Source: Hungatella sp.
GTDB lineage: Bacteria; Bacillota; Clostridia; Lachnospirales; Lachnospiraceae
Reading direction: 5' to 3'
Length of the DNA: 64,000 nt
NCBI GenBank assembly: GCA_022792815.1
Contig: JAAWBS010000038.1
Location: 1 to 64,000, forward strand
The position numbers were made by a program, and so were the translations under genes. Of the stretch, positions 12,721 through 33,102 are shown piece by piece. The notes beneath the pieces are model-generated. The model was not told the origin of the DNA, did not search any database, and saw only the letters and a program-made list of their open reading frames with translations. The first letter of the stretch is position 1; every line of letters starts with the position of its first letter.

Positions 12721-13950
12721 ATGGCAAAAAAATATGAGACGAGATTCTTTGAGTATTTTGTGGTATGGGCTATGATTATGTGCTCAGGAACCGTTGTATT
12801 TAATATAAAATATAATTCGGAGTTTATCCCTTTGTTTGCTGTGCTTTCTGTGTTCTTGTGTATCAGAAAATATGGGATTCGAATCAGAGCAGTAAATATC
12901 AAACACTTTATTGTGCTGCTTGCCATCATTTTGACTAACTGCTGCGCACATATTTTCAGCGGTATGGCATGGAACGGAATTATTCAGATTTTATTGTATA
13001 TTGTCGGGACATGGATGGTATTGTCTGCTATGGATTTAGAGAGATACCGATCCGTGTATATTAACATAGTAGTTGTCATGGCGCTGATATCAATACTTGT
13101 CTTATTCGCAGGAGATTTTAATCTCATTCCGACAGAACAAAAAAATATAAACGGAAAATTTTATTTAATATCATTACTGCATGTAGTAGGGTGGGACACT
13201 ACTCGTTTCAGCAGGATTTGTGGCTTGTTTCACGAACCGGGAATGTATCAGATCATTTTAAATACGGCAATTCTGTTTTGTGGGAATCGGCTGTTAACCA
13301 AAGTTGACAACATCACAATCATTCAGACATTGATATTGACAGGTACTCTCTTTTTAACTCAGTCAACCAGCGGCTATATCGCATTTGCTGTTATCGTATT
13401 TGCTGTTTGGTGGAAGATTAAAGATATCAAAATGAAAAAGCAATGGCGATTTTTTTATCTTTTATCCTTTCCGATGCTCTGTGCAGCGCTGTTAAAAATA
13501 TTGACAAGCAATACGATTATCAATAAATTCAGTACAAAAAATATTTCCTTTCGAATTCGGTCAAATGATCTGCTTTCCGGAATCAAGGTCATATGCTCCA
13601 GGCCTATTCTGGGATACGGATATTCGTCAGAATCCTATTTGAAAGGGATATCGGCTTTTGGAATAGAAGATATGTCCAATGGGATGATCGGATTTGCAAT
13701 TATGTTTGGGGTATTAGCGCTGACAATTGTGTTGAGCTGTCTGCTTGTTAATGTCAAAAAGCAGCATTGGAATATAAATAGTAATTTTGTGGTTTTATTC
13801 TACTTGATCGAAGCGTCGGTTGAGAGCTGGATCTTTTTCCCGGTTTCGCTGGCAATGATATTTTGGAGGGAGGACAAAATTGGAAAAGCAGATAGAGGTA
13901 AGCAGAGAATCTTTTTTACAAAAGGAAGTCAGAGACGACTTCATTGTTGA
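12721..13950 (+). CDS. Wzy-like O-antigen/capsule polymerase
   Basis: A 409-aa integral membrane protein with about ten hydrophobic segments and no soluble domain. The central loop VGWDTTRFSRICGLFHEPGMY and the following RPILGYGYSSESYL resemble the R-x-x-G-x-x-x-E-P and G-x-G-x signatures seen in Wzy polymerases and EpsG/EpsK-type proteins. It would polymerise flipped repeat units on the outer face. It is the only polymerase candidate in the cassette. Its last 71 bp overlap the TTG-started licD-like gene. Confidence 0.72.
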   Translation: MAKKYETRFFEYFVVWAMIMCSGTVVFNIKYNSEFIPLFAVLSVFLCIRKYGIRIRAVNIKHFIVLLAIILTNCCAHIFSGMAWNGIIQILLYIVGTWMVLSAMDLERYRSVYINIVVVMALISILVLFAGDFNLIPTEQKNINGKFYLISLLHVVGWDTTRFSRICGLFHEPGMYQIILNTAILFCGNRLLTKVDNITIIQTLILTGTLFLTQSTSGYIAFAVIVFAVWWKIKDIKMKKQWRFFYLLSFPMLCAALLKILTSNTIINKFSTKNISFRIRSNDLLSGIKVICSRPILGYGYSSESYLKGISAFGIEDMSNGMIGFAIMFGVLALTIVLSCLLVNVKKQHWNINSNFVVLFYLIEASVESWIFFPVSLAMIFWREDKIGKADRGKQRIFFTKGSQRRLHC

Positions 13951-14803
13951 TGAACAGAGAAAAAAGCTTTGGAAGACCATGCTGGATATCTTTGAGTGCA
14001 TCACATCTGTCTGTGAGAGACATGACATCCGCTATTTTTTAATCTCCGGTTCTGCTCTCGGTGCGGTGCGTCATAAGGGATTTATCCCGTGGGATGATGA
14101 TATGGATCTGGGGATGCTCAGAGATGACTATAATCGTTTTATACAGTATGCCAGAGATGAGATTAAGGAACCCCTGTTCCTGCAGGATGGATTCAATGAC
14201 GGAAATCATATCTGCGGACTGCTGAGGATACGCGACAGCCGCACTACAGCGATCATAAAAAACGATTTTTATAAGGAGTGCAATAATGGGATCTATGTGG
14301 AAATCTATCCCTTTGATAATGTCCCATCCAATGTCATAAAGGCAAAAGTTCAGGCTTTCCTCAGCCATTTGTTATATCATGGACTCCTTGCAGATTATTA
14401 TGGACCTGCAAGTAAGATGCAGTATGTAGGCCGCGGACTCGTTCGAATGATAGGAATCCGAAAAGCCTATCAGCTTTGGCAGGGTGTCTGTCAGAGATAT
14501 AATGGAAGGAATTGCCGTGACGTTGATACGGTCGCTTTGCCGCGCTGGTATGCAGAAGGCATTTATCGCATGCCGAGAGAGTGGGTTTCCCAAAAGAGAA
14601 TGGCGTCCTTTGAATACTTGACAGCCTGCATTCCAAACGAGGCAGAACGAATGCTGAAACTGCAGTTTGGCGACTATATGGCTCTGCCGCCGAAGGAGAA
14701 ACGGGGCGCTGAACATGAGCACCAGGTCTATTTTGATCCGGATACTCCCTACACGTCTTACAGAAATTCGGATACGGTAAAGAAATATTTGGATCTGAAA
14801 TGA
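13880..14803 (+). CDS. licD: LicD family phosphotransferase
   Basis: A 307-aa protein of the LicD family, which transfers phosphocholine or similar groups from CDP-/CMP-activated donors onto glycans. The signature is clear: FLISGSALGAVRHKGFIPWD at about residues 53-71 followed by DDDMD (72-76), the metal-binding nucleotidyltransferase-fold core. The start is TTG at 13880, seven bases after GGAGGGAGG. It lies in the same operon as AEP biosynthesis and a LicC-like cytidylyltransferase, so I infer that it places AEP rather than choline on the capsule. No choline kinase or choline transporter is in the window. Confidence 0.88.
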   Translation: MEKQIEVSRESFLQKEVRDDFIVDEQRKKLWKTMLDIFECITSVCERHDIRYFLISGSALGAVRHKGFIPWDDDMDLGMLRDDYNRFIQYARDEIKEPLFLQDGFNDGNHICGLLRIRDSRTTAIIKNDFYKECNNGIYVEIYPFDNVPSNVIKAKVQAFLSHLLYHGLLADYYGPASKMQYVGRGLVRMIGIRKAYQLWQGVCQRYNGRNCRDVDTVALPRWYAEGIYRMPREWVSQKRMASFEYLTACIPNEAERMLKLQFGDYMALPPKEKRGAEHEHQVYFDPDTPYTSYRNSDTVKKYLDLK

Positions 14804-14816
14804 AGCGGGAGTCTTT

Positions 14817-16241
14817 ATGAGTAAAAATAAACTTATGAAAGCAGGTTTGGGATATACCATAGGGAATTATCTGCTGAAGGGTCTGGCCTTTTTTTCTATC
14901 CCGGTGTTTACCCGATTGATGAGCACCGAGGACTATGGGTTATTCAATACCTTTGCCGCATATGAGTCCATTAGCTTTGTATTGATTGGCTTGGCTCTCC
15001 ATTCTTGTATAAAAAATGCAAAGTATCGATTTGCAGAGACATTTGATGATTTCTTGTCAACCTGTATGACATTGATGATGATGAGTTTTGTGTTTTGGCT
15101 GATGCTCCTCAAACTTTTTGAAGATGTGATACAGGTAAAACTGCGGCTTTCCGGGTTAGAATCTCACCTGCTTGTGGTCTGCAGTATGGGAAATGCCTTG
15201 GTCACCTTTTATACGACGTATCAGGGGCTGGAATATCGATACAAATCTTTTTTGGCTGCCTCATCTATGAATGCAGTCCTAAATTTGGTATTGTCTGTAG
15301 TTCTCATGAAGACAGTGTTTATAGATAATCCCTATTTAGGACGTGTATTTGGTACCTGCATTCCGTTGGTTCTGCTTTCCGTTTTTGTGATTCTATATTT
15401 TTACAGAAAGTCTCCCCCGAAGCTTTCTAAAATATATGCTGACTATGCGCTTAAGATCAGTATACCGATTATCCCTCATGGGATTTCTCAAGTGGTTTTG
15501 TCACAGTTTGACCGCATTATGATTCGGACGCTTTCCGGTGCTTCTCAGGCAGGCCTGTATAGTTTTGCATATAACATTTATATGATCATTCAGGTAACCG
15601 CTTCCTCGTTAAATAATGTTTGGGAACCCTGGTTTTTTGAAAAGATGAACGGCGATGACCATAGTTCCATTAAAAAATATGCAACGCTGTATTCCACATT
15701 TATTATGTGGATGTCGTCTTCTGTTTTGATTGTTTCTCCGGAACTGATCAAGCTGTTAGCCGCAAAAACTTACTGGGACTCGATCTATGTTGTGGTTCCC
15801 ATTGTCATTGCCGGGTACTTTTCATTTCTTTATACCATACCGGTGGCGGTTGAATATTATTATGAAAAGACAAAGTATATTGCATTGGCTACGGGGAGCG
15901 CTGCCCTTATCAATATTGTGCTGAATGCGGCGTTTATTCCATGTTATGGCTATATCGCCGCGGCATATACAACATTGGTGACTTACATGTTGTATTTTAT
16001 GTTTCACTATATTCTTTCTGTAAAACTTTATAAGAGATCCATATTGGAAGCCAGGATCCTGCTGATTAATATCCTGTTTGTGTTTGGAGCAGGGATATTT
16101 ACATTGATGGAATTAAATTCTTTTGTCATCCGGTGGGGGAGTCTGCTCGTTATTTACCTGGTCACATTTGGGGTTTTAGAGAAAAAGTTTCATTTCATAA
16201 GGCGGGGAATGAAGATTTTGGAAAGGAGAAAAGATTTATGA
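14817..16241 (+). CDS. Polysaccharide flippase (Wzx-like), second copy
   Basis: A 474-aa protein with about 12-14 hydrophobic segments. The start MSKNKLMKAGLGYTIGNYLL and IPVFTRLMSTEDYGLFNTF are typical of Wzx/RfbX flippases, as is PHGISQVVLSQFDRIMI. It would flip the lipid-linked repeat unit of this cassette. It shares the family but not close sequence with the flippase at 3472. Its TGA overlaps the ATG of the next gene. Confidence 0.9.
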   Translation: MSKNKLMKAGLGYTIGNYLLKGLAFFSIPVFTRLMSTEDYGLFNTFAAYESISFVLIGLALHSCIKNAKYRFAETFDDFLSTCMTLMMMSFVFWLMLLKLFEDVIQVKLRLSGLESHLLVVCSMGNALVTFYTTYQGLEYRYKSFLAASSMNAVLNLVLSVVLMKTVFIDNPYLGRVFGTCIPLVLLSVFVILYFYRKSPPKLSKIYADYALKISIPIIPHGISQVVLSQFDRIMIRTLSGASQAGLYSFAYNIYMIIQVTASSLNNVWEPWFFEKMNGDDHSSIKKYATLYSTFIMWMSSSVLIVSPELIKLLAAKTYWDSIYVVVPIVIAGYFSFLYTIPVAVEYYYEKTKYIALATGSAALINIVLNAAFIPCYGYIAAAYTTLVTYMLYFMFHYILSVKLYKRSILEARILLINILFVFGAGIFTLMELNSFVIRWGSLLVIYLVTFGVLEKKFHFIRRGMKILERRKDL

Positions 16242-17110
16242 GTCACGTGTTGTCAAGGGAACAGTTTGAGATTCTCGAACTGCTTATTACAAAAGGACAG
16301 AGTGTTCCCCAGGATCCAATGAAGGATGAGGTTCTGAGCGCTTTGACTGAGATGGGCTATGTTGAGAATGGGATCATTACCGCGGCAGGGAGAAATGCTA
16401 TGGAGCCCTATCGTGTGAAACGGGCAGTCTTTATTGCGGCCGGAGTGGGAAGCCGGCTCACACCGATTACAGTGAATACACCGAAACCTTTAGTCCGTGT
16501 AAATGGGAAGAGAATGATTGACGGCCTGATCGATGCCTGTCTGGCGGCCGGAATTCAGGAGATTTATATTGTCCGCGGATATCTTTCCGAGCAGTTTGAT
16601 CAACTGTTATATAAGTATCCTATGATAAAGTTTATCGAAAACCCGGCGTATGGGGAAGCCAATAATATTTCTTCTTCCGTTTGCGCCAGATATTTACTTA
16701 CCGGCGCCTATGTGTTTGAGGCAGATTTACTGATCAGAAATCCCAAAATTATCCGCCCTTATTGTTATTCATCTAATTTCTTGGCCATCAAAAAGGATAA
16801 AACCGATGACTGGTGTTTTTTGGCGGAAGGAAATGTGATTGTAGAGGAAAAGGTCGGCGGTACGGACTGCTGGCAGATGGTAGGTATCTCTTACTGGGAC
16901 GAGACGGACGGCCGTAAACTGTCTGATGACATCCAAAAGATATATGATGGTCCCGGAGGAAAGAGCCTTTATTGGGAACAGGTACCGTTGGTATGCTGCA
17001 AGGATCGCTATCGGGTAGAAATACGTGAGTGCCATGAAACAGATATCGTCGAGATCGATACCTTTCGGGAACTGACGGTGATCGATCAGACTTATCAGGT
17101 TTCAATTTAG
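16238..17110 (+). CDS. LicC-like nucleotidyltransferase with N-terminal winged-helix segment
   Basis: A 290-aa protein that probably activates a phospho- or phosphono-amine with CTP. Residues 1-58 (SREQFEILELLITKG onward) look like a small winged-helix domain. Residues 62-290 are a nucleotidyltransferase with the signature AAGVGSRLTPITVNTPKPLV at 67-86 and FIENPAYGEANNISSS further on, as in LicC-type CTP:phosphocholine cytidylyltransferases. The ATG at 16238 overlaps the stop of the flippase and has AAGGAG before it; an earlier in-frame ATG at 16133 would lie inside the flippase and is rejected. The next gene is the AEP transaminase, so CMP-AEP formation, as described for PntC enzymes, is the likely role. 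Confidence 0.8.
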   Translation: MSHVLSREQFEILELLITKGQSVPQDPMKDEVLSALTEMGYVENGIITAAGRNAMEPYRVKRAVFIAAGVGSRLTPITVNTPKPLVRVNGKRMIDGLIDACLAAGIQEIYIVRGYLSEQFDQLLYKYPMIKFIENPAYGEANNISSSVCARYLLTGAYVFEADLLIRNPKIIRPYCYSSNFLAIKKDKTDDWCFLAEGNVIVEEKVGGTDCWQMVGISYWDETDGRKLSDDIQKIYDGPGGKSLYWEQVPLVCCKDRYRVEIRECHETDIVEIDTFRELTVIDQTYQVSI

Positions 17111-17124
17111 ATGAGGAAGGGGAC

Positions 17125-18270
17125 ATGATGATGGAAATAAAAAGAAACATTTTGTTGAACCCAGGGCCGTCTACAACGACGGATACGGTAAAATTGGCAC
17201 AGGTGGTTCCTGATATCTGCCCGCGGGAGCAGGAGTTTGCCGGAATGATGAAAGGATTGAGGGAGGATTTGTTGAAAATCGTTCATGCAGATCCCGCAAA
17301 GTACACGTCCGTGCTGTTTTGCGGATCAGGAACCATCAATATTGATGTCTGTATCAACAGCCTTCTTCCGGAGGGAAAAAAGGTCTTGGTGGTCAACAAC
17401 GGTGCGTACAGTACCCGGGCCGTTGAAATATGTCAGTATTATGGTCTGCCTCATATTGATTTAAGGTTTCCTGTTGATCGGCTTCCTGATCTTTCTCTGG
17501 TAGAGAAGACATTGCGGGAGGATCCTGACATTGCTCTGGTTCATACGACACACCATGAAACGGGAACTGGGATCCTGAACCCGATCCGTGAAATCGGTGC
17601 TTTAGCACACATGTATGGCGCTGTCTTTACCGTTGATACAACATCGACTTTGGCCATGCTGCCGATCGATATGGAGGAGAGCCATATTGATTTCTGTATG
17701 GCCTCAGCGCAGAAAGGGCTGATGGCTATGACCGGGCTGTCCTTTGTCATCGGAAACAGAGCGGTCATTGAGGAGTCAAAACATTATCCGAAGCGTTCTT
17801 ACTACTGCAATCTCTATCTCCAATATGAGTTCTTTGAGAAGACAGGGGAGATGCATTTTACGCCGCCGGTACAGACGATCTATGCCTCGATCCAGGCCTT
17901 GAAGGAGTATTTTGCAGAGGGAGAAGAAGAAAAATGGAAACGGCATACCCGCGTATTTCGTGCAATCCATGATGGTCTTGATGAGCTTGGATTTCGGGAT
18001 GTGATCAGGCGGGAGTGGCAGAGCGGTCTTGTCGTCTCTGTGCTCTACCCGGATGATGTCAACTGGGATTTTGAAAAGATCCATGATTATTGTTATGACT
18101 GCGGCTTTACGATTTATCCCGGAAAAATCTCGACAACCAATACATTTCGCCTCTGTGCGTTAGGGGCCATCGACGAGCAGGATATCAAAGACTTTTTCGT
18201 GGTTCTAAAAGAGGCGTTACATACGTACCACATACAAATACCGGTACCATATAAGGAGACGATGGGATGA
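17125..18270 (+). CDS. phnW: 2-aminoethylphosphonate transaminase
   Basis: A 381-aa PLP enzyme of the class V aminotransferase fold. It begins RNILLNPGPSTTTDTVK, the typical AEP transaminase start. LFCGSGTINID near residue 64, Asp171 in FTVDTTSTLAM and the PLP-binding lysine K197 in MASAQKGLMAM are all present. In the biosynthetic direction it converts phosphonoacetaldehyde to AEP. With the next two genes it completes the route from PEP. No phosphonatase (PhnX) is nearby, which argues for synthesis rather than degradation. It ends overlapping the next ATG. Confidence 0.92.
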   Translation: MMMEIKRNILLNPGPSTTTDTVKLAQVVPDICPREQEFAGMMKGLREDLLKIVHADPAKYTSVLFCGSGTINIDVCINSLLPEGKKVLVVNNGAYSTRAVEICQYYGLPHIDLRFPVDRLPDLSLVEKTLREDPDIALVHTTHHETGTGILNPIREIGALAHMYGAVFTVDTTSTLAMLPIDMEESHIDFCMASAQKGLMAMTGLSFVIGNRAVIEESKHYPKRSYYCNLYLQYEFFEKTGEMHFTPPVQTIYASIQALKEYFAEGEEEKWKRHTRVFRAIHDGLDELGFRDVIRREWQSGLVVSVLYPDDVNWDFEKIHDYCYDCGFTIYPGKISTTNTFRLCALGAIDEQDIKDFFVVLKEALHTYHIQIPVPYKETMG

Positions 18271-19562
18271 AAAAAGTGTATACATGTTTTTGTACGGATG
18301 TGATTCACGAGGGTCACCGGAATATCATTCATGAAGCCGGAAAGTATGGGGAAGTGATCGTAGGGGTTCTCAGTGATGAGGCCATGATTCGGTTTAATCG
18401 TTTTCCTACTGTAAGCTTTGAGGAGCGAATGCAGATCGTGAAGGATATCGGGGAAGTCAGCCAGGTAATGGTGCAGAACGACGTCATGTATGACAGGGTT
18501 GTCAGAGAGATTCGGCCGGATTATGTGATTCATGGGGATAATTGGCTGGAAGGCCCCATGAAAGCCATTCGGGATAATGTCGCTTCTCTTTTAAGCACAT
18601 ACGGCGGACAGATTATCGATGTTCCCTATACCTGCAATGAACGGGTGAAAACCATTGACGATCGGATCAAAGCGAAGCTGGCTATGCCGGAATACCGCAG
18701 AAAAAGGCTGCGTCAGCTGATTGAGATCCGTCCCATCGTCAAGGCGATCGAGGTTCACAGCGGTATTACAGGCTTAATTGCAGAAAAGACCATTGTAGAA
18801 CATCAGGGTGAGCTGGATCAGTTTGATGCCATGTGGATCAGCTCTTTGTGTGATTCTACGGCGAAGGGAAAACCGGATATTGAGCTGGTGGACATGACCT
18901 CCAGATTTCGAACCATCGATGATGTGACGGAAGTGACCACAAAGCCTATTATCTTTGACGGTGATACAGGAGGACAGACAGAGCATTTTGTCTATACCGT
19001 GAGGACTCTGGAGAAGATGGGGGTATCTGCGGTTATTATTGAGGATAAGACCGGTTTGAAAAAGAATTCCCTGTTTGGGACTGAAGTGGAGCAGACTCAG
19101 GATTCCATCGAGGGGTTTAGCGCGAAGATCGCGGCCGGCAAAAAGGCTCAGCTGACCGATGACTTTATGATTATCGCCAGGATAGAGAGTCTGATTCTGG
19201 AGAGGGGGATGGAGGACGCTCTAAACCGGGCACAGGCATTTGTGAGTGCAGGAGCGGACGGGATTATGATCCACAGCCGGAAGAAATCGCCTGCAGAAAT
19301 TATAGAGTTCTGTGATCGGTTCCGTGAGGAGGATAAGAATACCCCGATCGTGGTGGTCCCCTCCTCGTTTAACAGCATTACCGAGGCAGAGCTTGCAGAC
19401 CATGGGGTGAATATCGTGATTTATGCCAATCAGCTGACCAGGAGTGCATTTCCGGCCATGCAGAAGACGGCAGAGGATATTTTGAGATATCATCGGGCAC
19501 AGGAAGTAGACAGCAGACTTCTTCCGATTAAGGATATTATCACCTTAATTGATGAGATTTGA
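18267..19562 (+). CDS. pepM: PEP mutase with N-terminal cytidylyltransferase-like domain
   Basis: A 431-aa fusion. Residues 1-135 form a TagD/RfaE-type nucleotidyltransferase domain with the HxGH motif H14-E-G-H17 and a VIHGDNW segment near 87-93. Residues 140-431 are phosphoenolpyruvate mutase: DGDTGG (231-236) supplies the metal-binding aspartates, and EDKTGLKKNS (259-268) is the EDK-x5-NS motif that separates true PEP mutases from isocitrate lyase relatives. It makes phosphonopyruvate from PEP, the step that forms the C-P bond. The start overlaps the transaminase stop. The fused domain is a second candidate for CTP activation in this cluster, alongside the gene at 16238. Confidence 0.94.
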   Translation: MKKVYTCFCTDVIHEGHRNIIHEAGKYGEVIVGVLSDEAMIRFNRFPTVSFEERMQIVKDIGEVSQVMVQNDVMYDRVVREIRPDYVIHGDNWLEGPMKAIRDNVASLLSTYGGQIIDVPYTCNERVKTIDDRIKAKLAMPEYRRKRLRQLIEIRPIVKAIEVHSGITGLIAEKTIVEHQGELDQFDAMWISSLCDSTAKGKPDIELVDMTSRFRTIDDVTEVTTKPIIFDGDTGGQTEHFVYTVRTLEKMGVSAVIIEDKTGLKKNSLFGTEVEQTQDSIEGFSAKIAAGKKAQLTDDFMIIARIESLILERGMEDALNRAQAFVSAGADGIMIHSRKKSPAEIIEFCDRFREEDKNTPIVVVPSSFNSITEAELADHGVNIVIYANQLTRSAFPAMQKTAEDILRYHRAQEVDSRLLPIKDIITLIDEI

Positions 19563-19617: not shown

Positions 19618-20739
19618 TTGAAGGCTGCAAAATTGACAGAAATTATCGGGGCTGATTTTTATACAGGGGTTCCGGACTCACAGCTCAAGGCATTGTGTGA
19701 TTATTTGATGGATACCTATGGGATTTCTTCCAGACATCACATAATCGCTGCCAATGAAGGAAACTGTGCGGCCCTTGCCGCAGGCTATCATCTGGCTACG
19801 GGAAAGGTACCTGTGGTATATTTGCAGAATAGCGGGGAGGGAAATATAATCAACCCCCTGGCGTCGCTCTTAAATGAGAAGGTATATGGGCTCCCTGTCA
19901 TTTTTATCGTTGGCTGGCGCGGCGAGCCGGGGCGCCATGATGAACCCCAGCATATTTATCAGGGAGAGGTGACATTGAAACTTCTTGAAGATATGAATCT
20001 TAAAACATTTGTTATCGGAAAAGAAACATCGGAGGATGAATTGACAGCAGTTATGTCAGAATACCGCGGGATTCTCTCTTCCGGCAGAAGCGTCGCATTT
20101 GTTGTACGCAGGGGTGCAATTTCTTTTGACAGAGAGATTACGTATAGAAATAATAACACAGTGGTTCGGGAAGAGGTTATCAGACATGTTGTAAAGGCGG
20201 CCGGGGAAGATCCGATTATTTCCACTACGGGAAAAGCCAGCCGTGAACTGTTTGAAATACGCACGGGAAATGGACAAGGTCATCAATGCGACTTTTTGAC
20301 CGTCGGCTCTATGGGCCACAGCTCATCTATTGCCTTGGGAGTGGCGCTTCATAAGCCTCAAGCGAGAGTTTGGTGTATCGACGGAGACGGGGCCGTGCTG
20401 ATGCATATGGGCGCCATGGCTGTCATGGGAGCGGTGAAACCTGAAAATGTGATTCATATCGTAATCAATAATGGCGCTCATGAGAGTGTGGGCGGCATGC
20501 CGACAGTTATGGCTCAGATCGATCTGATCGGGATTGCAAAGGCATGTGGTTATCCGAACGCCGTCAGCGTCAGTAGATTGGAGGAACTGGACTCGGCATT
20601 GGAAGCATGTAAGAAACGGAAAGAACTGAGCTTTCTTGAAGTGAAATGTGCTGTCGGTGCAAGAGAGGATTTGGGCAGACCAACGACTACGGCGCTGGAG
20701 AATAAGGAAAACTTTATGAGGTATCTGGAATCTCTGTAG
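19618..20739 (+). CDS. ppd: Phosphonopyruvate decarboxylase
   Basis: A 373-aa thiamine-diphosphate enzyme that decarboxylates phosphonopyruvate to phosphonoacetaldehyde, pulling the unfavourable PEP mutase reaction forward. The N-terminal half has YTGVPDSQLKALCDYL and the catalytic glutamate E47 in NEGNCAALAAGYHLATG; the C-terminal half has GSMGHSSSIALG and the TPP motif GDGAVLMHMG...NN, followed by GAHESVGG. The length matches single-chain Ppd enzymes. The start is a TTG about eleven bases after AAGGGGGA; the in-frame ATG at 19591 runs into a stop. Confidence 0.93.
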   Translation: MKAAKLTEIIGADFYTGVPDSQLKALCDYLMDTYGISSRHHIIAANEGNCAALAAGYHLATGKVPVVYLQNSGEGNIINPLASLLNEKVYGLPVIFIVGWRGEPGRHDEPQHIYQGEVTLKLLEDMNLKTFVIGKETSEDELTAVMSEYRGILSSGRSVAFVVRRGAISFDREITYRNNNTVVREEVIRHVVKAAGEDPIISTTGKASRELFEIRTGNGQGHQCDFLTVGSMGHSSSIALGVALHKPQARVWCIDGDGAVLMHMGAMAVMGAVKPENVIHIVINNGAHESVGGMPTVMAQIDLIGIAKACGYPNAVSVSRLEELDSALEACKKRKELSFLEVKCAVGAREDLGRPTTTALENKENFMRYLESL

Positions 20740-20820: not shown

Positions 20821-22315
20821 ATGATTTTTAATTCGGTACAGTTCTTGATTTTCTTTCCAGTCGTATTTATGGTTTATTTTTTACTCCCACCTGGAATAAG
20901 ATATATTTGGCTTCTGGTAAGCAGTTATTATTTTTATATTTGTTGGAATCCCAAATATATTATTTTGATTTTATTTTCCACTGTAATTACTTACATAAGC
21001 GGCATTGTTATGGAGATATTGAGGGAAGGGAAAGGGGACATTCGGTTAAAGGGACATGATCTTAAGATATGTGCTGCCATAAGCTTTATACTCAATTTAT
21101 CAATGCTGTTCTATTTTAAATATTTTGAGTTTGCGGTATCCACACTCAACAGGATCTTTGGGATAATCGGAGCGGAGGCGGAAATCTCATCTGGAGATAT
21201 GATACTTCCGGTAGGGATTTCTTTTTATATTTTTCAGGCATTAGGATATACGATGGATGTGTACCGAGGAGAGATAAAGGCAGAAAGAAACTTTTTGCGG
21301 TATGCGCTTTTTGTGTCCTTTTTTCCGCAGCTGGTAGCGGGTCCTATTGAGCGTTCGAAAAATCTCTTAAGGCAGGTGGATAGTCCTACTTATTTTGATT
21401 TAGAAAATGTCAGACAGGGATTGCTTACCATGGCTTATGGACTTTTTATGAAGGTGGCAGTCGCTGATCGTCTTGCCGGTATCATTGATCCGATTTATGG
21501 TGATTGGATTAACCACACAGGAATGGACCTTGGGGCTGCAACAATGCTTTTTGCGGTTCAGATCTATTGTGATTTTGAGGGATACTCCCAGTTGGCTATC
21601 GGCAGCGCGCAGGTTTTAGGCTTTCGGATAAACCAGAATTTTAAAACGCCATATCTCAGTACCAATATTCGGGAGTTTTGGAAAAGATGGCATATCTCTC
21701 TGACAAATTGGTTTCGTGATTACTTGTATATTCCATTGGGAGGAAGCAGAAAGGGACGAGGTCGGAAATATATAAATACTATGATAGTATTTCTTATTTC
21801 CGGTTTATGGCATGGAGCCAGTTGGCATTTTGTGGTATGGGGGGGTAAATGGTTTTTATAGTATCATACAGGACAGTACAGAATCTGTGAGAAAAAAAGT
21901 CTATCGTTTTTTGAAGATAGATACAGAAGCATTATTCTGGAAATGTTTCTGTGGATTTGTTACGTTCTTTTTGATTGATATTTCATGGCTGCTTTTCCGA
22001 TCGCCAGGAGTACGTCAGGCTATATCCATATTATATAAAATATGTAATGGCTTTAATCCCTGGTATTTTTTCTCTGACGATTTTTATAATATTTTCGGCT
22101 CGGCAAAAAATTTCTCCATAATTGTATTTTCATTGGCAGCTGTTGTGGGTGTTGATATGGTTCGAAAAAAAGGTGTCAGCCTTAAAGAATACCTGCTAAA
22201 GCAGCAAATTGTTTACCGCTGGTCGATTTATTTAATTCTTATTTTTATCATTATGCTGTGGGGAGCATATGGAAATGATTATGAGCAGACACAGTTTATT
22301 TACTTCCAATTCTAA
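20821..22315 (+). pseudogene. MBOAT O-acyltransferase, frameshifted at a poly-G tract
   Basis: Two frames together encode one membrane-bound O-acyltransferase of the AlgI/DltB/PatA type. The first frame (20821-21861) gives SVQFLIFFPVVFMVYF, LPVGISFYIFQALGYTMDVYRG, FFPQLVAGPIERSKNLL, CDFEGYSQLAIGSAQVLGF, REFWKRWHISLTNWFRDY and GLWHGASWHF with the catalytic histidine. It then stops at TAG (21859-21861). The C-terminal part (NGFYSIIQDSTESV...) continues in another frame to 22315. The break is a run of seven G (21839-21845). Nine G would restore a 498-aa protein with W-G-G-V-N-G, matching the usual W-G-x-x-H/N-G spacing; six G would also be in frame. Either a phase-variable OFF state, a real pseudogene or a sequencing error. 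Predicted role: acylation of the capsule outside the membrane, with the SGNH-like protein that follows. Confidence 0.88.
21839..21845 (+). repeat. Poly-G tract (7) at the MBOAT frameshift
   Basis: Seven consecutive G bases lie just after the WHGASWHFVV codons, exactly where the reading frame breaks. Adding two G or removing one restores the frame. Confidence 0.9.
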
Positions 22316-23240
22316 AGGAAAAGTCATATTCGGCTGCAAGGCAATTCTTATGTTTTTTATGATTTGGATATTTTGTTTTCATTTTGTGATGCCGCAGTAT
22401 TCGGGCGGATATGATGCGTCGCTGATTGATAAGGTTGACCGATTGAAATCCATAGATGGTCCCAAGATTGTATTAATCGGAAATTCTAATCTGTCCTTCG
22501 GGATTGATTCAGAAAAATTGGAACAGGCTTTTGACATGCCGGTCGTGAATATGGGACTCCATGGAGCTTTGGGGAATGCATTCCATGAAAATATGGCAAA
22601 AATAAATATACATGAGGGGGATATCTATATCATTTGCCATTCGAATTTTTCAGATAATGGGATGATTGATGATAAGGTTCTCGCCTGGAGCACGATTGAA
22701 AATCATTTTGGTCTATGGCGCCTCTTAAGCCGTGAGGATCTTTATCCCATGGCTAAGGAATATCCCGTGTATCTAAAGAAATGCTTAGAGCTTTTTATAT
22801 CAGGAGGCGGAAATCAACTGCCAGGAGGCTGCTATTCCAGAGACGCTTTTAATCAATATGGCGATATTTCATTGGATCGCACAGAATCTTTGTATACATT
22901 TGAATCACCAGTAACTCCGCCATCCATTAACGATACTGCTGTCAGCAGAATCAACCGATTAAATGTATGGATGGCTGAAAGAGGAGCAGTACTTTTAGTC
23001 GCCGGATATCCTATTGGAAAAGGGGAGCTGACGGATCCGGAAGAATCCTTTATGAAAGCGCAAAAGGAATTATCAGAACGTTTATCATGCCCGGTGATCT
23101 CTGATTACAGAGATTACATGTTTGACTACAGCCTGTTTTATAATACGGATCTTCATCTGACAACAGAGGGAGCCGCATTGAGGACAAAACAGCTGATCGA
23201 GGATTTGCATAGGTGGATGAATCATAACAGTGAGAAATGA
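22275..23240 (+). CDS. SGNH/DltD-like membrane-anchored acyl-transfer partner
   Basis: A 321-aa protein with one N-terminal membrane anchor (about residues 18-38, ILMFFMIWIFCFHFV) and an extracellular domain. IVLIGNSNLSFGIDSEKL resembles block I of SGNH hydrolase-like proteins (serine after G-N), and near the C-terminus LFYNTDLHLTTEGAALRT supplies the D-x-x-H pair. Such proteins pair with MBOATs (AlgI with AlgJ/AlgX, PatA with PatB, DltB with DltD) to move acyl groups onto glycans. I prefer the ATG at 22275, nine bases after GGGGAG, to those at 22269 or 22281. The gene overlaps the end of the MBOAT frame. Confidence 0.72.
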   Translation: MIMSRHSLFTSNSKGKVIFGCKAILMFFMIWIFCFHFVMPQYSGGYDASLIDKVDRLKSIDGPKIVLIGNSNLSFGIDSEKLEQAFDMPVVNMGLHGALGNAFHENMAKINIHEGDIYIICHSNFSDNGMIDDKVLAWSTIENHFGLWRLLSREDLYPMAKEYPVYLKKCLELFISGGGNQLPGGCYSRDAFNQYGDISLDRTESLYTFESPVTPPSINDTAVSRINRLNVWMAERGAVLLVAGYPIGKGELTDPEESFMKAQKELSERLSCPVISDYRDYMFDYSLFYNTDLHLTTEGAALRTKQLIEDLHRWMNHNSEK

Positions 23241-23270: not shown

Positions 23271-24361
23271 ATGCAAGTAACAAATGATCAAGGAAATAAA
23301 AAAGCAAGATATGCATATATAGATGTACTGAGATTTCTGGGGATTTTTGCTATCTATTTAGGACATATAAGTTCTCCGTCAGGACCGGTAAACAAATTTG
23401 TATTTTTGTATCACGTTCCGCTGTTCTTCTTTGTCTCTGGATGTATGGATATAAATAGAGAAATGGTACTTGAGGGGCAAGGAGAGAATCCTTATTCGTA
23501 TAAACGGTACATAAAAAGTATTGTCCATGATATTAAAACATTAGTATTTCCGTGGCTATTCTTTTCAATATTTTCCATGATCGTGTATGTTTTAAACAAT
23601 GGATTTGATAAAGAAAAGGTAATTTTAAATTTAGAAATTATTATGAAAGGATGTATCAGAAATCAATTTTTTGCAGGTTCATTATGGTTTTTTACATGTC
23701 TGTTTATTGTGAAAATAATATTTGGCTTAATAAAATTATTAAAAAACAGACTCCTGATATTTGTCATCTGTTTGCTGCTTTTTTATATTTCTGAGTATGG
23801 ATTGCCGCACAGGCCATTGGTTAATCCGCAATGGTATTGGAATACAGATAGTGCCATGTACTATATAATCTATTATGGAATAGGATTTTGCCTCTTTCCG
23901 AAATTTAATAGTTTGTTGGCGGGAAACGATAGAAGTGAGGGAAGAAAAATAAAAAAGGCTATGTTTTATGCGATTTTCGTCTGGGGGGGGTATACTCGGC
24001 ACTGGCCTTTTTGGGAAAAGATTTATTGAGAATGTGGCAGAATCTGTATCTGTTGGGAAATTTTATCATAGTAATAAGAAGTCTGCTGATTATTTGCTTT
24101 CATATTGGCCTGGCTCATGTGTTACAGAGTGTGGAATTTTATAAAGATATAGGAAGGAAAACCTTATATATGTGCGGGAACGAATACATAGTTAAAATAT
24201 GCATATCCGCATTAACGGGTTTGTTTGGATTCTCCATAAAGGGCGGAAATTATATAGCGGAGATTTTATATGTTTTGATTCTGCTATATATGGTCGACCG
24301 ATTTTTAGTACCTGTGGAGAGTTTATTGATTGGAGTAAAAAGGAAATTAAAAGATAGATAA
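23271..24361 (+). pseudogene. Acyltransferase-3 family protein, frameshifted at a poly-G tract
   Basis: The first frame (23271-24029) starts like an OafA/NodX-type acyltransferase, with RYAYIDVLRFLGIFAIYLGH, then KFVFLYHVPLFFFVSGCM and several membrane segments. It ends early at TGA (24027-24029). The remaining membrane segments (LLRMWQNLYLLGNFIIVIRS through YMVDRFLVPVESLLIG) continue in another frame to 24361. The break is a run of eight G (23983-23990). One more G joins the halves into a 363-aa protein reading FVWGGVYSALAFLGKDLL, the normal family length. It would O-acetylate a sugar using acetyl-CoA. As with the MBOAT gene, this may be a reversible OFF state or an assembly error. Confidence 0.87.
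23983..23990 (+). repeat. Poly-G tract (8) at the acyltransferase-3 frameshift
   Basis: Eight consecutive G bases lie at the point where the acyltransferase frame is lost; nine (or six) would keep it open. Confidence 0.9.
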
Positions 24362-28209: not shown

Positions 28210-29816
28210 ATGGAAAAACGTGTTTTTAATGTGAGCGGTGACTGCAAACCGGATCTTCACTATATGGTAGATATCACATCCAAACTTGAGCAGATCAGGG
28301 CTATGGTGGACAATGGGCAGTATTTTGCGATCAATCGAGCACGCCAGTTTGGCAAGACCACGACCCTGCGGGCCTTAAGCGGGTATCTGAGACATGATTA
28401 TTATCCGATCTCTATGGACTTTCAGACATTCGGGGCCGGAGAATTTGAAAATGAGAACATTTTTGCACTGTCATTTGCAAGGTCATTTTTGCGCATATTA
28501 AAAAGAGTTTTTGATCCGGAGGAAAGGAAGCGGACGGAGGCTGTCAGAAATCTTGAGAACATCGTGGAGGCAGAGAATCCGCGTTTTAGGCTGCAGAGAC
28601 TGTTTGAGGAGCTGAGTGATATCTGTGGGACTGCAGATAAGCCTGTCGTACTGATGATCGATGAAGTGGACAGCGCTTCCAATAATCAGGTTTTCCTGGA
28701 TTTTCTGGCGCAGCTGCGCGCATATTATATCGACAGAGATGTCCGGCCCACCTTTTGGTCTGTTATCTTGGCAGGGGTATACGATGTGAAAAATCTGCGG
28801 CAGAGGATCCGCCCCCAGGAGGCCCATAAGGTAAACAGCCCATGGAATATTGCCGCCGATTTTAAGGTGGAGATGAGCTTCTCAAAAGAAGAGATCAAAG
28901 GGATGCTGAGACAATATGAGAACGATTGGGATACAGGGATGGACGTGGAGAAAATAGCCGGACTGCTCTATGACTATACCTCGGGATATCCGTTTCTTGT
29001 GTCAAGGCTGTGTAAGATCATAGATGAAGACGTCAGCAGGGAAAAGCTCTTTTATTGTAAAAGTGCAGCGTGGACAGAGGCGGGGTTTCATGAGGCGCTT
29101 CGCATGCTGATGGCGGAAAAAATACCCTGTTTGAATCCCTGGCCGGAAAGCTGACAGGCGATACGGAATTAAACGCTATGCTGCAGGCCCTGCTTTTTAA
29201 CGGCAAGAGTATTGTCTACAACGCGGATGACCCGGCCACTGATATGGCTGTCATGCTGGGCTTTGTCAAGAATCATCATGGAAATGTGGTGATTGCAAAT
29301 CGTATTTTTGAGACACGGCTTTATAATATGTATTTGTCGGCGGGAGAGCTTCAGAGGCAGGAGATTTATAAAGCCTCCCTGCTGGATAAGAGCCAGTTTA
29401 TTGTATCCGGACATCTGAATATGAGACGGGTTCTGGAGAAATTTGCGGAGCATTTTGATGAGCTTTACCATGACAGTGATGAGACATTCGTCGAAGAGGT
29501 TGGAAGAAAATATTTCCTGCTCTATCTCAAGTCTATTATCAATGGGACAGGGAATTATCATATTGAGACAAGGACCAGAAGTCTTGGACGGACTGACGTA
29601 ATTGTAGATTATTGTGGGCAGCAGTTTGTGATAGAGCTTAAAATCTGGCATGGCAATGAGTACCATATGCGCGGGGAAAGGCAGCTGCTTTGTTATCTGG
29701 ATGACTATCATATTGATAAGGGATATATGCTCAGCTTTAACTTTAATAAAAAGAAGCAGATTGGGGTTCATGAGATCGTAATCGGCGATAAGATCTTGAT
29801 CGAGGCGGTTGTATAA
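28210..29816 (+). pseudogene. AAA-ATPase-like/PD-(D/E)XK nuclease-like protein, single frameshift
   Basis: Two frames (28210-29154 and, continuing, to 29816) form one protein of the AAA-ATPase-like (PF09820) plus C-terminal PD-(D/E)XK (PF08011) family. The first frame has the degenerate P-loop NRARQFGKTTTLRAL (42-56) and VVLMIDEVDSASNN. The second has RIFETRLYNMYLS and the nuclease core GRTDVIVDY...QQFVIELKIWHG, with D and E-x-K. The break is at six A (29117-29122): seven A would read AEKNTLFESLAGKLTGDTEL and give about 535 aa, the usual family length. Role unknown; the family is very abundant in gut anaerobes and is often suspected of mobile-element or defence function. Confidence 0.82.
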
Positions 29817-30823: not shown

Positions 30824-33102
30824 GTAAGATAAAAGACCGAAATATCTATATCTGTATGCTGCTGTGTCTTTTGACAGCTGCAGCTTCTCTTGGATATTAT
30901 ATGATTTCTGACAGAGGAGTTTTCACAGTAGTGGCAGATTTTAATACACAGCAGATCCCATTCCTGACAGCGATGAACCATTATTTGAAAAATGCGTCCG
31001 GCACATGGTGCTGGAATGCGGATTTGGGGACTCAGCTTATTGGAGGGTACACATTCTACAATATCGGAAGTCCCTTTGTATGGCTCACATTTTTATTCCC
31101 CAAGACATTGGTTCCATATCTGACAGGTTGGCTTTATATATTGAAATATATGGTTGCCGGCCTGACTGCTTATCTGTATTTGCGGATGTTTATTAAGAAT
31201 AAAGAGTATGCGGTTGGGGGAGCTCTGGTGTATGCATTTTCGGGATTTCAGAGTACCAATTTGCTGTTTTTTCATTTTCACGATGTGGTGGCATGTTTTC
31301 CGCTGATGTTAATCGGTTTGGAAAAGATGATTGCAGAGAGAAAAAAGGGGCTGTTTATTTTTGCAGTATTTCTGAACTGCATGGTCAATTATTTTTTCTT
31401 TATCAGCGAAGTGATTTTTTTGATCTTATACTATATCGTAAGATTTTGGAAAAAGGATGTGGTTTTGTTTTTTAAAGATGCCGTTCTCTGCATGTTCTGC
31501 GGAATCGTGGGGACAGGGATGGCGGCGTTCCTTTTTCTGCCCTCGGTGCTTTTTATTATGGGAAATCCCAGAACTCAGTCTTCCTTCCATCTCAGGACGC
31601 TGATGTATTACGGAGGCCATCTTCTGCTGGCCGTGAAAGGGTTCCTGCTCCCGGGAGAATCTATGGGGAATCAGTCCTGTATTGTGCCGGAGCACTGGTA
31701 CTCTGCCGATTGCTATCTGCCTATGATCGGAGGTGCACTGGCCTTTGCTTATATGCTGAAAAAGAGAAAAGACTGGCTGACAAAGTTTTTGCTGATTTTA
31801 TGGATTATCTCCTGTTCGCCGCTGCTTGATTCTGCCTTTTATCTGTTTACGGAGCCCTATAAACGATGGTGGTTTATGTTTTCTCTGATGTTGGCGGCAG
31901 CGTCAGTAAAAGTACTGGATGAAAGGGAAGAATATCCTGTGAAAGCGGGAATCTTGATCAACCTGACCTTGTTGATTCTGTTTGGATTATCGCTGCTATA
32001 TTTGGAGCGGTCTTCTTGGATGGAGACAACTGTGATATTAAGAAAACAGGTATTTATCATAAACTATGTGATCGCCTATCTGGGGCTTGGCTTAACCTGG
32101 ATTTTTTGTCTGGGAAGACGGCAGATGAGAGGAAATGTGTGGAAAGCATTTCTTGTATGTTGCTGTGTTTTTTGCGTTGCTACTACGTTTTATGGGTTAT
32201 CCCTTTACCGACAGAACGCAGAAACAGGGAGGGACTACTTAAAGCATTATCAGGCAGGGCTGCAGCTGAAAAAGTTAGATGATCAATATCGATATAACCT
32301 GACAGACAATGTCCTTACCCTCACTGGGGAGGCAAGTGGAGTCGGATCATTTAATTCAACTGTCAGCAGCTCTATCAATGAATTTGATCAGTTGTTCGAC
32401 TTTGAACGGCAAAATGTCAGCATGATTCCGGATTCTGTGCCTGGAGTGAGAGAACTGTTGGCTGCCAAATATCGACTGACCAGAGAGGCTCCTTCTGTTG
32501 GGGAAGCGGCAGATGTATTCAGTGTGGATGAGACGAAATACTATGTGGCAGAAGATCCTGTCTGCCCCATCGGCTTTATGCTGGATACCTATATTACCAA
32601 AAGTGAATTAAAAGCGCTTCCTGTCAGCAAACGGGGTATGGCTATGATGGACAATCTAGTTGTCAGCGATGATGATGAATCTGTTGTGGCAGACTATTTA
32701 AGACACAATTCAGATGTAACTGATACAGAAGGCAGCGGTGAGATTTCAGCGATGGTCGCCGCTGCTTTGGAAAACAGGGTAACCGACTTTCACCGTCTTC
32801 AGTCAGGATTTGAGTGTACGGCTAGTCTTGATTCTAAACGGGCTGTCTTTTTCAGTGTCCCATATGATTCCGGCTGGTCTGCCTATGTGGGGGGGGACAA
32901 GGTGGAAATCCTTGACTGCGGCGGTTTGATGGGGATTCTACTTGAACCCGGGGAATATAGGATATCATTTCAGTACCAGGTTCCAGGATTTAAGACAGGA
33001 ATAGGCATAGCGATTGTCTGCTTTGCCGTATTTGCATGGTCGATTTGGGATACCAGGAAAAAAGGCGTGTATCTTCCCCTTGCACAATTCATCGCGGATT
33101 GA
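30820..33102 (+). CDS. YfhO family membrane protein
   Basis: A 760-aa protein with about 12-14 membrane segments in the first 430 residues and a large extracellular C-terminal part closed by one more membrane helix. The N-terminus (FTVVADFNTQQIPFLTAMN, AFSGFQSTNLLFFHFHDVV) and VFFSVPYDSGWSAYVGGDKV near the end are typical of YfhO proteins, which resemble GT-C glycosyltransferases and have been tied to teichoic-acid glycosylation in Listeria. The start is TTG at 30820, overlapping the stop of the GT2 gene. Codons for VGG near residue 690 lie in a run of eight G (32889-32896), here in frame. Confidence 0.85.
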   Translation: MSKIKDRNIYICMLLCLLTAAASLGYYMISDRGVFTVVADFNTQQIPFLTAMNHYLKNASGTWCWNADLGTQLIGGYTFYNIGSPFVWLTFLFPKTLVPYLTGWLYILKYMVAGLTAYLYLRMFIKNKEYAVGGALVYAFSGFQSTNLLFFHFHDVVACFPLMLIGLEKMIAERKKGLFIFAVFLNCMVNYFFFISEVIFLILYYIVRFWKKDVVLFFKDAVLCMFCGIVGTGMAAFLFLPSVLFIMGNPRTQSSFHLRTLMYYGGHLLLAVKGFLLPGESMGNQSCIVPEHWYSADCYLPMIGGALAFAYMLKKRKDWLTKFLLILWIISCSPLLDSAFYLFTEPYKRWWFMFSLMLAAASVKVLDEREEYPVKAGILINLTLLILFGLSLLYLERSSWMETTVILRKQVFIINYVIAYLGLGLTWIFCLGRRQMRGNVWKAFLVCCCVFCVATTFYGLSLYRQNAETGRDYLKHYQAGLQLKKLDDQYRYNLTDNVLTLTGEASGVGSFNSTVSSSINEFDQLFDFERQNVSMIPDSVPGVRELLAAKYRLTREAPSVGEAADVFSVDETKYYVAEDPVCPIGFMLDTYITKSELKALPVSKRGMAMMDNLVVSDDDESVVADYLRHNSDVTDTEGSGEISAMVAAALENRVTDFHRLQSGFECTASLDSKRAVFFSVPYDSGWSAYVGGDKVEILDCGGLMGILLEPGEYRISFQYQVPGFKTGIGIAIVCFAVFAWSIWDTRKKGVYLPLAQFIAD
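32889..32896 (+). repeat. Poly-G tract (8) inside the YfhO-like gene, in frame
   Basis: Eight G bases within GTG-GGG-GGG-GAC. Gain or loss of one base would truncate the protein before its last extracellular segment and terminal helix. Confidence 0.85.

Follow-up and report, generated by a model that had tools for sequence, protein, structure and literature searches.

The MBOAT gene in the window (the whole 64,000-nucleotide stretch of Hungatella sp. DNA that was analysed) loses its reading frame within a run of seven G, and we put at about 0.7 the probability that this copy is the OFF allele of a poly-G contingency locus that varies by slipped-strand mispairing. Such switching had been proposed in the initial annotation and is supported by the comparative evidence: copies of the gene occur both in and out of frame at the same codon, the broken copy has no sign of decay, a second acyltransferase gene in the locus is broken as well and long G runs are in excess. 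The pattern appears to span many loci and several species, which goes beyond what had first been noted.

The MBOAT gene and its locus

Run counting and the ORF coordinates confirmed the seven G at 21839-21845 and the break of the MBOAT frame exactly there, in a pure repeat inside the ORF. The upstream piece matches PF03062 in a profile search and carries the WHG motif, aligned with that of DltB, whose histidine we take to be catalytic. The alignment with DltB (6bug) covers residues 120-341, and the tract starts nine residues past the WHG histidine. Internal stops number 0 in both the upstream and the downstream part.

20821-22315, + strand: MBOAT gene overall, broken at the G7 tract (ORF list)
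20821..21861, + strand: MBOAT upstream piece, 346 aa (PF03062, E=7e-30; DltB alignment up to the tract)
21839..21845, + strand: G7 tract, where the MBOAT frame is lost (run counting, ORF coordinates)
21848..22315, + strand: MBOAT downstream piece, 155 aa, stop-free, in a different frame that is open from 21812

The genes on either side are as follows.

13880..14803, + strand: LicD-family protein (PF04991, E=9e-36)
14817..16241, + strand: polysaccharide flippase-like protein (weak match below cut-off)
16133..17110, + strand: sugar-1-phosphate nucleotidylyltransferase-like protein (matches below cut-offs)
17125..18270, + strand: 2-aminoethylphosphonate (AEP) aminotransferase (TIGR03301)
18267..19562, + strand: phosphoenolpyruvate mutase with an N-terminal nucleotidyltransferase-like part (TIGR02320)
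19618..20739, + strand: phosphonopyruvate decarboxylase (TIGR03297)
22269..23240, + strand: SGNH-like partner protein, which starts within the end of the MBOAT gene; 56% identity with the Schaedlerella partner
23271-24361, + strand: acyltransferase-3 gene overall, broken at a G8 tract, two genes downstream of MBOAT
23271..24029, + strand: acyltransferase-3 upstream piece (PF01757, E=3e-14)
23983..23990, + strand: G8 tract, at which acyltransferase-3 goes out of frame (run counting, ORF coordinates)
24011..24361, + strand: acyltransferase-3 downstream piece, in a different frame (ORF list)

With its AEP enzymes and LicD protein, the locus is most likely to be read as making a phosphonate-bearing surface polysaccharide. 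The PF03062 match, the DltB alignment and the adjoining SGNH-like protein resemble the DltB/AlgI type of MBOAT with an AlgX-like SGNH partner. Unlike in AlgI/AlgX, the partner in the window matches the AlgX profile PF16822 below the curated cut-off (E=0.014), its SGNH-like motifs being recognised by eye. The break of the acyltransferase-3 frame at the G8 tract is absent from the initial annotation. By the ORF coordinates the two neighbouring broken genes shift in different directions, one from frame 1 to 2 and the other from frame 0 to 2. The other G8 runs in the window, at 32889 and 41470, are in frame.

We propose that slipped-strand mispairing at replication would alter the number of G within the Trp-Gly-Gly motif of this AlgI/DltB-like MBOAT. 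With the run out of register, translation would stop soon after the presumed catalytic WHG motif, the last third of the membrane protein would not be made and the overlapping SGNH-like partner may lose its translational coupling. The G run of acyltransferase-3 would be a second switch, likewise out of register, and since two genes are involved the AEP/LicD-type surface polysaccharide could have several acylation states.

Elsewhere in the window an AAA_35-type ATPase gene (28210-29816) is apparently split near 29154 into pieces of 314 and 212 aa in different frames, with a six-A run nearby and no long G run. It looks like a pseudogene or an error, and it spoils a clean picture, in that the breaks in the window do not all look to be of the poly-G kind.

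Intact copies and the same codon in other genomes

The window's own genome (G000) holds two MBOAT paralogs, on its contigs C14 and C65. The C14 paralog is intact, with nine G at the same codon as the G7 tract, and its 498 aa and W-G-G-V-N-G motif agree with the initial annotation, according to which nine G would restore a 498-aa enzyme with the spacing W-G-x-x-H/N-G. The C65 paralog and the syntenic ortholog in G003, another species of the same genus, are also intact. The downstream piece of the window gene is 64.5% identical to C14, 65.8% to C65 and 71.0% to the G003 copy. By eye, a similar SGNH-like gene comes next in line after the C14 and C65 MBOATs. The gene order in G003, judged by eye from the translations, matches that of the window: flippase, nucleotidyltransferase, AEP transaminase, PEP mutase and phosphonopyruvate decarboxylase, then MBOAT, the SGNH-like gene and acyltransferase-3. 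G003 has an additional 205-aa gene with a G8 run between phosphonopyruvate decarboxylase and MBOAT. Its acyltransferase-3 gene is fragmented, with a frame change at a six-G run in the same place and a second lesion farther upstream.

In a tree of MBOAT sequences the window and G003 copies form a pair (support 92), as do C14 and C65 (support 86), and in both cases a pure G site stands beside an interrupted one. The interruption is silent, GGA and GGG both encoding Gly. Because the intact C65 and G003 sites read GGGGAGGGG, a single silent change in a Gly codon separates the pure from the interrupted tract.

Between the window and G003 copies dN/dS is 0.13 upstream of the tract (339 codons) and 0.15 downstream (155 codons). 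With C14 and C65 as reference, unique amino-acid changes in the window and G003 copies number 13 vs 21 before the tract and 9 vs 10 after it, and the broken gene appears to be evolving no faster than its intact ortholog. Both halves would seem to be constrained, mainly on the comparison with G003, since dS between the window copy and the two paralogs reaches very high or saturated values. The initial annotation had named further inactivating changes in all relatives as evidence against switching; these were not seen, the syntenic ortholog in G003 being intact.

Across 84,980 species genomes, a search for the MBOAT motif with nine or more G behind it yielded 18 loci with the tract at this codon; the frame is kept in 12 and lost in 6 (the 18 include L083, which is shortened at its upstream end, and L094, which is the copy of G023, a genome listed under the window's genus). 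In the 6 out-of-frame loci the remainder of the gene (61-156 aa) is open in another frame, and the single genome MGBC000175 contains one in-frame and one out-of-frame MBOAT tract. By record labels, 13 of the loci belong to Lachnospiraceae or its genera, 2 to one Clostridia MAG and 1 each to Oscillospiraceae, Selenomonadales and Prevotellaceae. Among the 13, the family placement of Schaedlerella and Eisenbergiella was checked, while Roseburia is assumed to be a Lachnospiraceae genus.

Within 397 genomes of the window's family at least six G were found at the site in 14 matches from 12 genomes, with a pattern that required a non-G base 22 places on and missed some sites. Read by eye from the printed strings, the W-G-x-x-x-G frame is kept in 12 of the 14 and lost in the window copy; the match in G344 is without the motif. 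At least nine G were present in 2 of the 397 genomes, the window's being one, by the same pattern that misses some. Apart from this survey, among the MBOAT matches listed, those in G015, G032 and G012 have internal stops, and the MBOAT of G015 has no long tract; like the AAA_35 gene, these look to be broken in some other way.

For the tree, 61 of 66 candidate loci had a usable piece, and 55 rows remained once 6 duplicates were dropped. In this quick tree, where most tract-bearing rows were sampled for having the tract, the tract needs at least 14 changes, at least 5 of them forced by the starred branches, and it is no more clustered than in shuffles (mean 16.0 changes). These sequences suggest that the MBOAT switch site is rare but recurrent, and not general.

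Long G tracts in the window's genome and its relatives

In the window, matches to G7 number 8 against a mean of 17.7 in dinucleotide shuffles. Exact-length counts with extrapolation were chosen because such shuffles predict more G runs than are observed. Four genomes were counted in this way, as a non-random set in which G003, G023 and Schaedlerella arabinosiphila were picked after tracts had been seen there. The exact G runs of length 6, 7, 8 and at least 9, followed by the number of at least 9 expected from the G6-to-G7 ratio, are:

G000: 735, 55, 8 and 6; expected about 0.3
G003: 652, 47, 15 and 20; expected about 0.3
G023: 176, 31, 7 and 8; expected about 1.2
Schaedlerella arabinosiphila DSM 106076: 765, 41, 18 and 21; expected about 0.1

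The nine-to-ten-G tracts of the MBOAT paralog and homologs and the tracts of at least nine G in the four genomes are longer than chance would give. The length of the G7 in the window is by itself unexceptional, the gene break there being the unusual part. Runs of at least ten A or T number 0, 4, 1 and 2 in G000, G003, G023 and Schaedlerella, respectively, none of them with an open frame of at least 40 aa upstream.

All 55 G7 runs of G000 were classified (53 runs in 52 stretches, together with two in the window). For 49 of them (37 read as G and 12 as C) the run falls in an open frame of 100 aa or more, counting both strands. Another 4 are in non-coding sequence or short frames, and the remaining 2, the MBOAT run and L221, carried a split flag. 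At L221 a long frame also passes straight through the run; this was judged a false flag, which looks like an antisense artefact. Only the MBOAT of the window is convincingly split among the 55. The 8 runs of G8 comprise 5 in frame, 2 non-coding and 1 that splits a gene, acyltransferase-3. Among the 6 runs of at least nine G, an open frame is split by 4 and continues in frame through 1; the last is non-coding.

Across an even sample of relatives, runs of at least ten G occur in 26 of 61 genomes. They are present in 12 of the 26 members of the genus (G009 at a contig end only), in 3 of 11 other members of the family and in 11 of 24 genomes from other families of the order. Not every genome of the genus has such runs, and they also occur outside the family. 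The 55 tracts of at least nine G in the four genomes are intragenic in 36 cases (open frame extending 40 aa or more to each side), near a 3' end in 8, near a 5' end in 7 and non-coding in 4. Of the intragenic tracts 21 are out of frame, with L126 and L206 being gene junctions, and 15 in frame, with L123 and L181 being doubtful ORFs; this division is near that expected of random register.

Genes carrying at least nine G include, by Pfam, a glycosyltransferase family 2 gene with GtrA parts, a hexapeptide acetyltransferase, a methyltransferase, a response regulator, a BTAD regulator and a polysaccharide lyase 8 with choline-binding repeats. For several more, Pfam gave no match. In the window's genome, outside the window, the tracts include:

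L070, contig C49, 5372-5381: G10 about 144 aa past the start of a very large, secreted-looking protein that it splits; the protein has polysaccharide lyase 8 domains together with choline-binding repeats
L071, contig C66, 9896-9906: G11 that splits a surface protein with Ig-like and choline-binding repeats
L072, contig C16, 4457-4465: G9 that splits a BTAD regulator
L073, contig C11, 4558-4569: G12 that splits a DUF1796 protein
L074, contig C37, 8649-8657: G9 in a promoter-like spacer

Runs of G9-G10 lie between TTGACA and TAnnnT, with spacers of 17-20 bases, at L074, at L130 and L135 in Schaedlerella and at L109 in G033, by a loose pattern of our own making that was applied without a null. 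Each of these four tracts is 5' of a gene whose product, by eye, has a secreted-like start. The arrangement is like that of Neisseria porA/opc-type promoters, in which a homopolymer in the promoter spacer is the switch, here as a feature of the sequence only.

At L106 (G021), L107 (G025) and L102 (G023) tandem epimerase-like and glycosyltransferase-like genes, recognised by eye, each have G9-G11 near the 3' end, and the tails that follow the runs are short and similar. C-terminal switching or a repeated element are both possible there. A surface-polysaccharide locus in G003 (L205, C1:126000-141000) has an MBOAT without a tract; neighbouring acetyltransferase, SGNH-like and acyltransferase-like genes, named by eye, carry G8-G9, and both in-frame and out-of-frame cases occur.

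We lean towards the view that some Lachnospiraceae gut commensals have a poly-G phasome of Campylobacter scale (6 to 21 tracts of at least nine G per genome in the four genomes), which would span polysaccharide acylation, glycosyltransferase, methyltransferase, secreted polysaccharide lyase, regulators and promoter spacers. A repeatedly arisen switch site, made and unmade by one silent base change, would then lie in the Trp-Gly-Gly codons of capsule MBOATs.

Alternative readings, known systems and significance

The main rival is a fixed loss of function, in which a single break at a short G run has left a young or decaying pseudogene. Seven-G runs are indeed short and common in G000, the two intact paralogs on C14 and C65 are present, and the module can decay, because the acyltransferase-3 of G003 carries another lesion besides its G-run frame change. 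Against this, the pieces of the window MBOAT are stop-free and both are constrained relative to G003, the adjacent acyltransferase-3 is broken in the same way and 6 of the 18 long-tract homologs are out of frame at this very codon, and we consider a fixed loss unlikely. Seven G would probably slip slowly, and as a contingency allele the window copy may be stably OFF.

An error of sequencing or assembly in the homopolymer is more improbable still. The assembly is fragmented (73 contigs, 89% complete), homopolymers are error-prone on some platforms and the AAA_35 gene is apparently split near its six-A run, but general undercalling would break far more G7 and G8 genes than the few found split in G000, and tract-broken surface genes are also present in Schaedlerella, a named strain with 'quiver_pilon' in its record title. 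Some full-length enzyme might instead come from recoding at the G run, by programmed ribosomal frameshifting or by transcriptional slippage, since a G run permits tRNA re-pairing and the downstream MBOAT frame is open and conserved. The two broken genes change frame in different directions, which disfavours one recoding event, and in the homologs the frame is kept by nine G or by an A interruption; such recoding we regard as very improbable.

Slipped-strand switching of the MBOAT has close counterparts. In Campylobacter jejuni, out-of-register lengths of poly-G loci such as cgtB truncate the enzyme, as part of PMC6437147 describes, and several such loci occur per genome (parts of PMC8437040 and PMC8355987). 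The likeness to these capsule and LOS loci, as far as those parts describe them, lies in G homopolymers within surface-glycan enzyme genes; the differences are the host, Lachnospiraceae of the Bacillota, the enzymes, MBOAT and acyltransferase-3, and the fact that the present loci are known from sequence alone. Phase-variable sugar O-acetylation is described for OafA of Haemophilus and OafB of Salmonella in part of PMC9558356, and is likewise a switching of a membrane-bound sugar O-acylation enzyme, as predicted here. Unlike the window MBOAT, OafA and OafB come from Gram-negative hosts and belong to the acyltransferase-3 proteins; according to the same part of that source, S. Typhi represents an epigenetic case. 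Invertible promoters (Jiang 2019, as cited in part of PMC11868660) also provide phase variation in gut commensals, by recombination and not through homopolymers. A cross-prokaryote survey of homopolymers included Clostridia, with Lachnospira* absent from its main text (PMC2831843, in part). In the open-access literature searched, mostly by title and start of abstract, no paper was recognised as describing poly-G phase variation in Lachnospiraceae. The novelty lies in the taxon, in the MBOAT site and in how many loci the commensals carry, the mechanism being already known.

Among the gut-type Lachnospiraceae with poly-G loci is the cultured Schaedlerella arabinosiphila, a member of the altered Schaedler flora (part of PMC11352710), and Illumina reads of its strain MD300 (ASF502) are public (part of PMC7453283). 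Out-of-register alleles can be mistaken for pseudogenes in strain-level metagenomics. If the switching is real, the surface glycans of commensals would vary between cells through the same simple mutation as in Campylobacter, which would bear on phage receptors, on immune recognition and on strain-level metagenomics.
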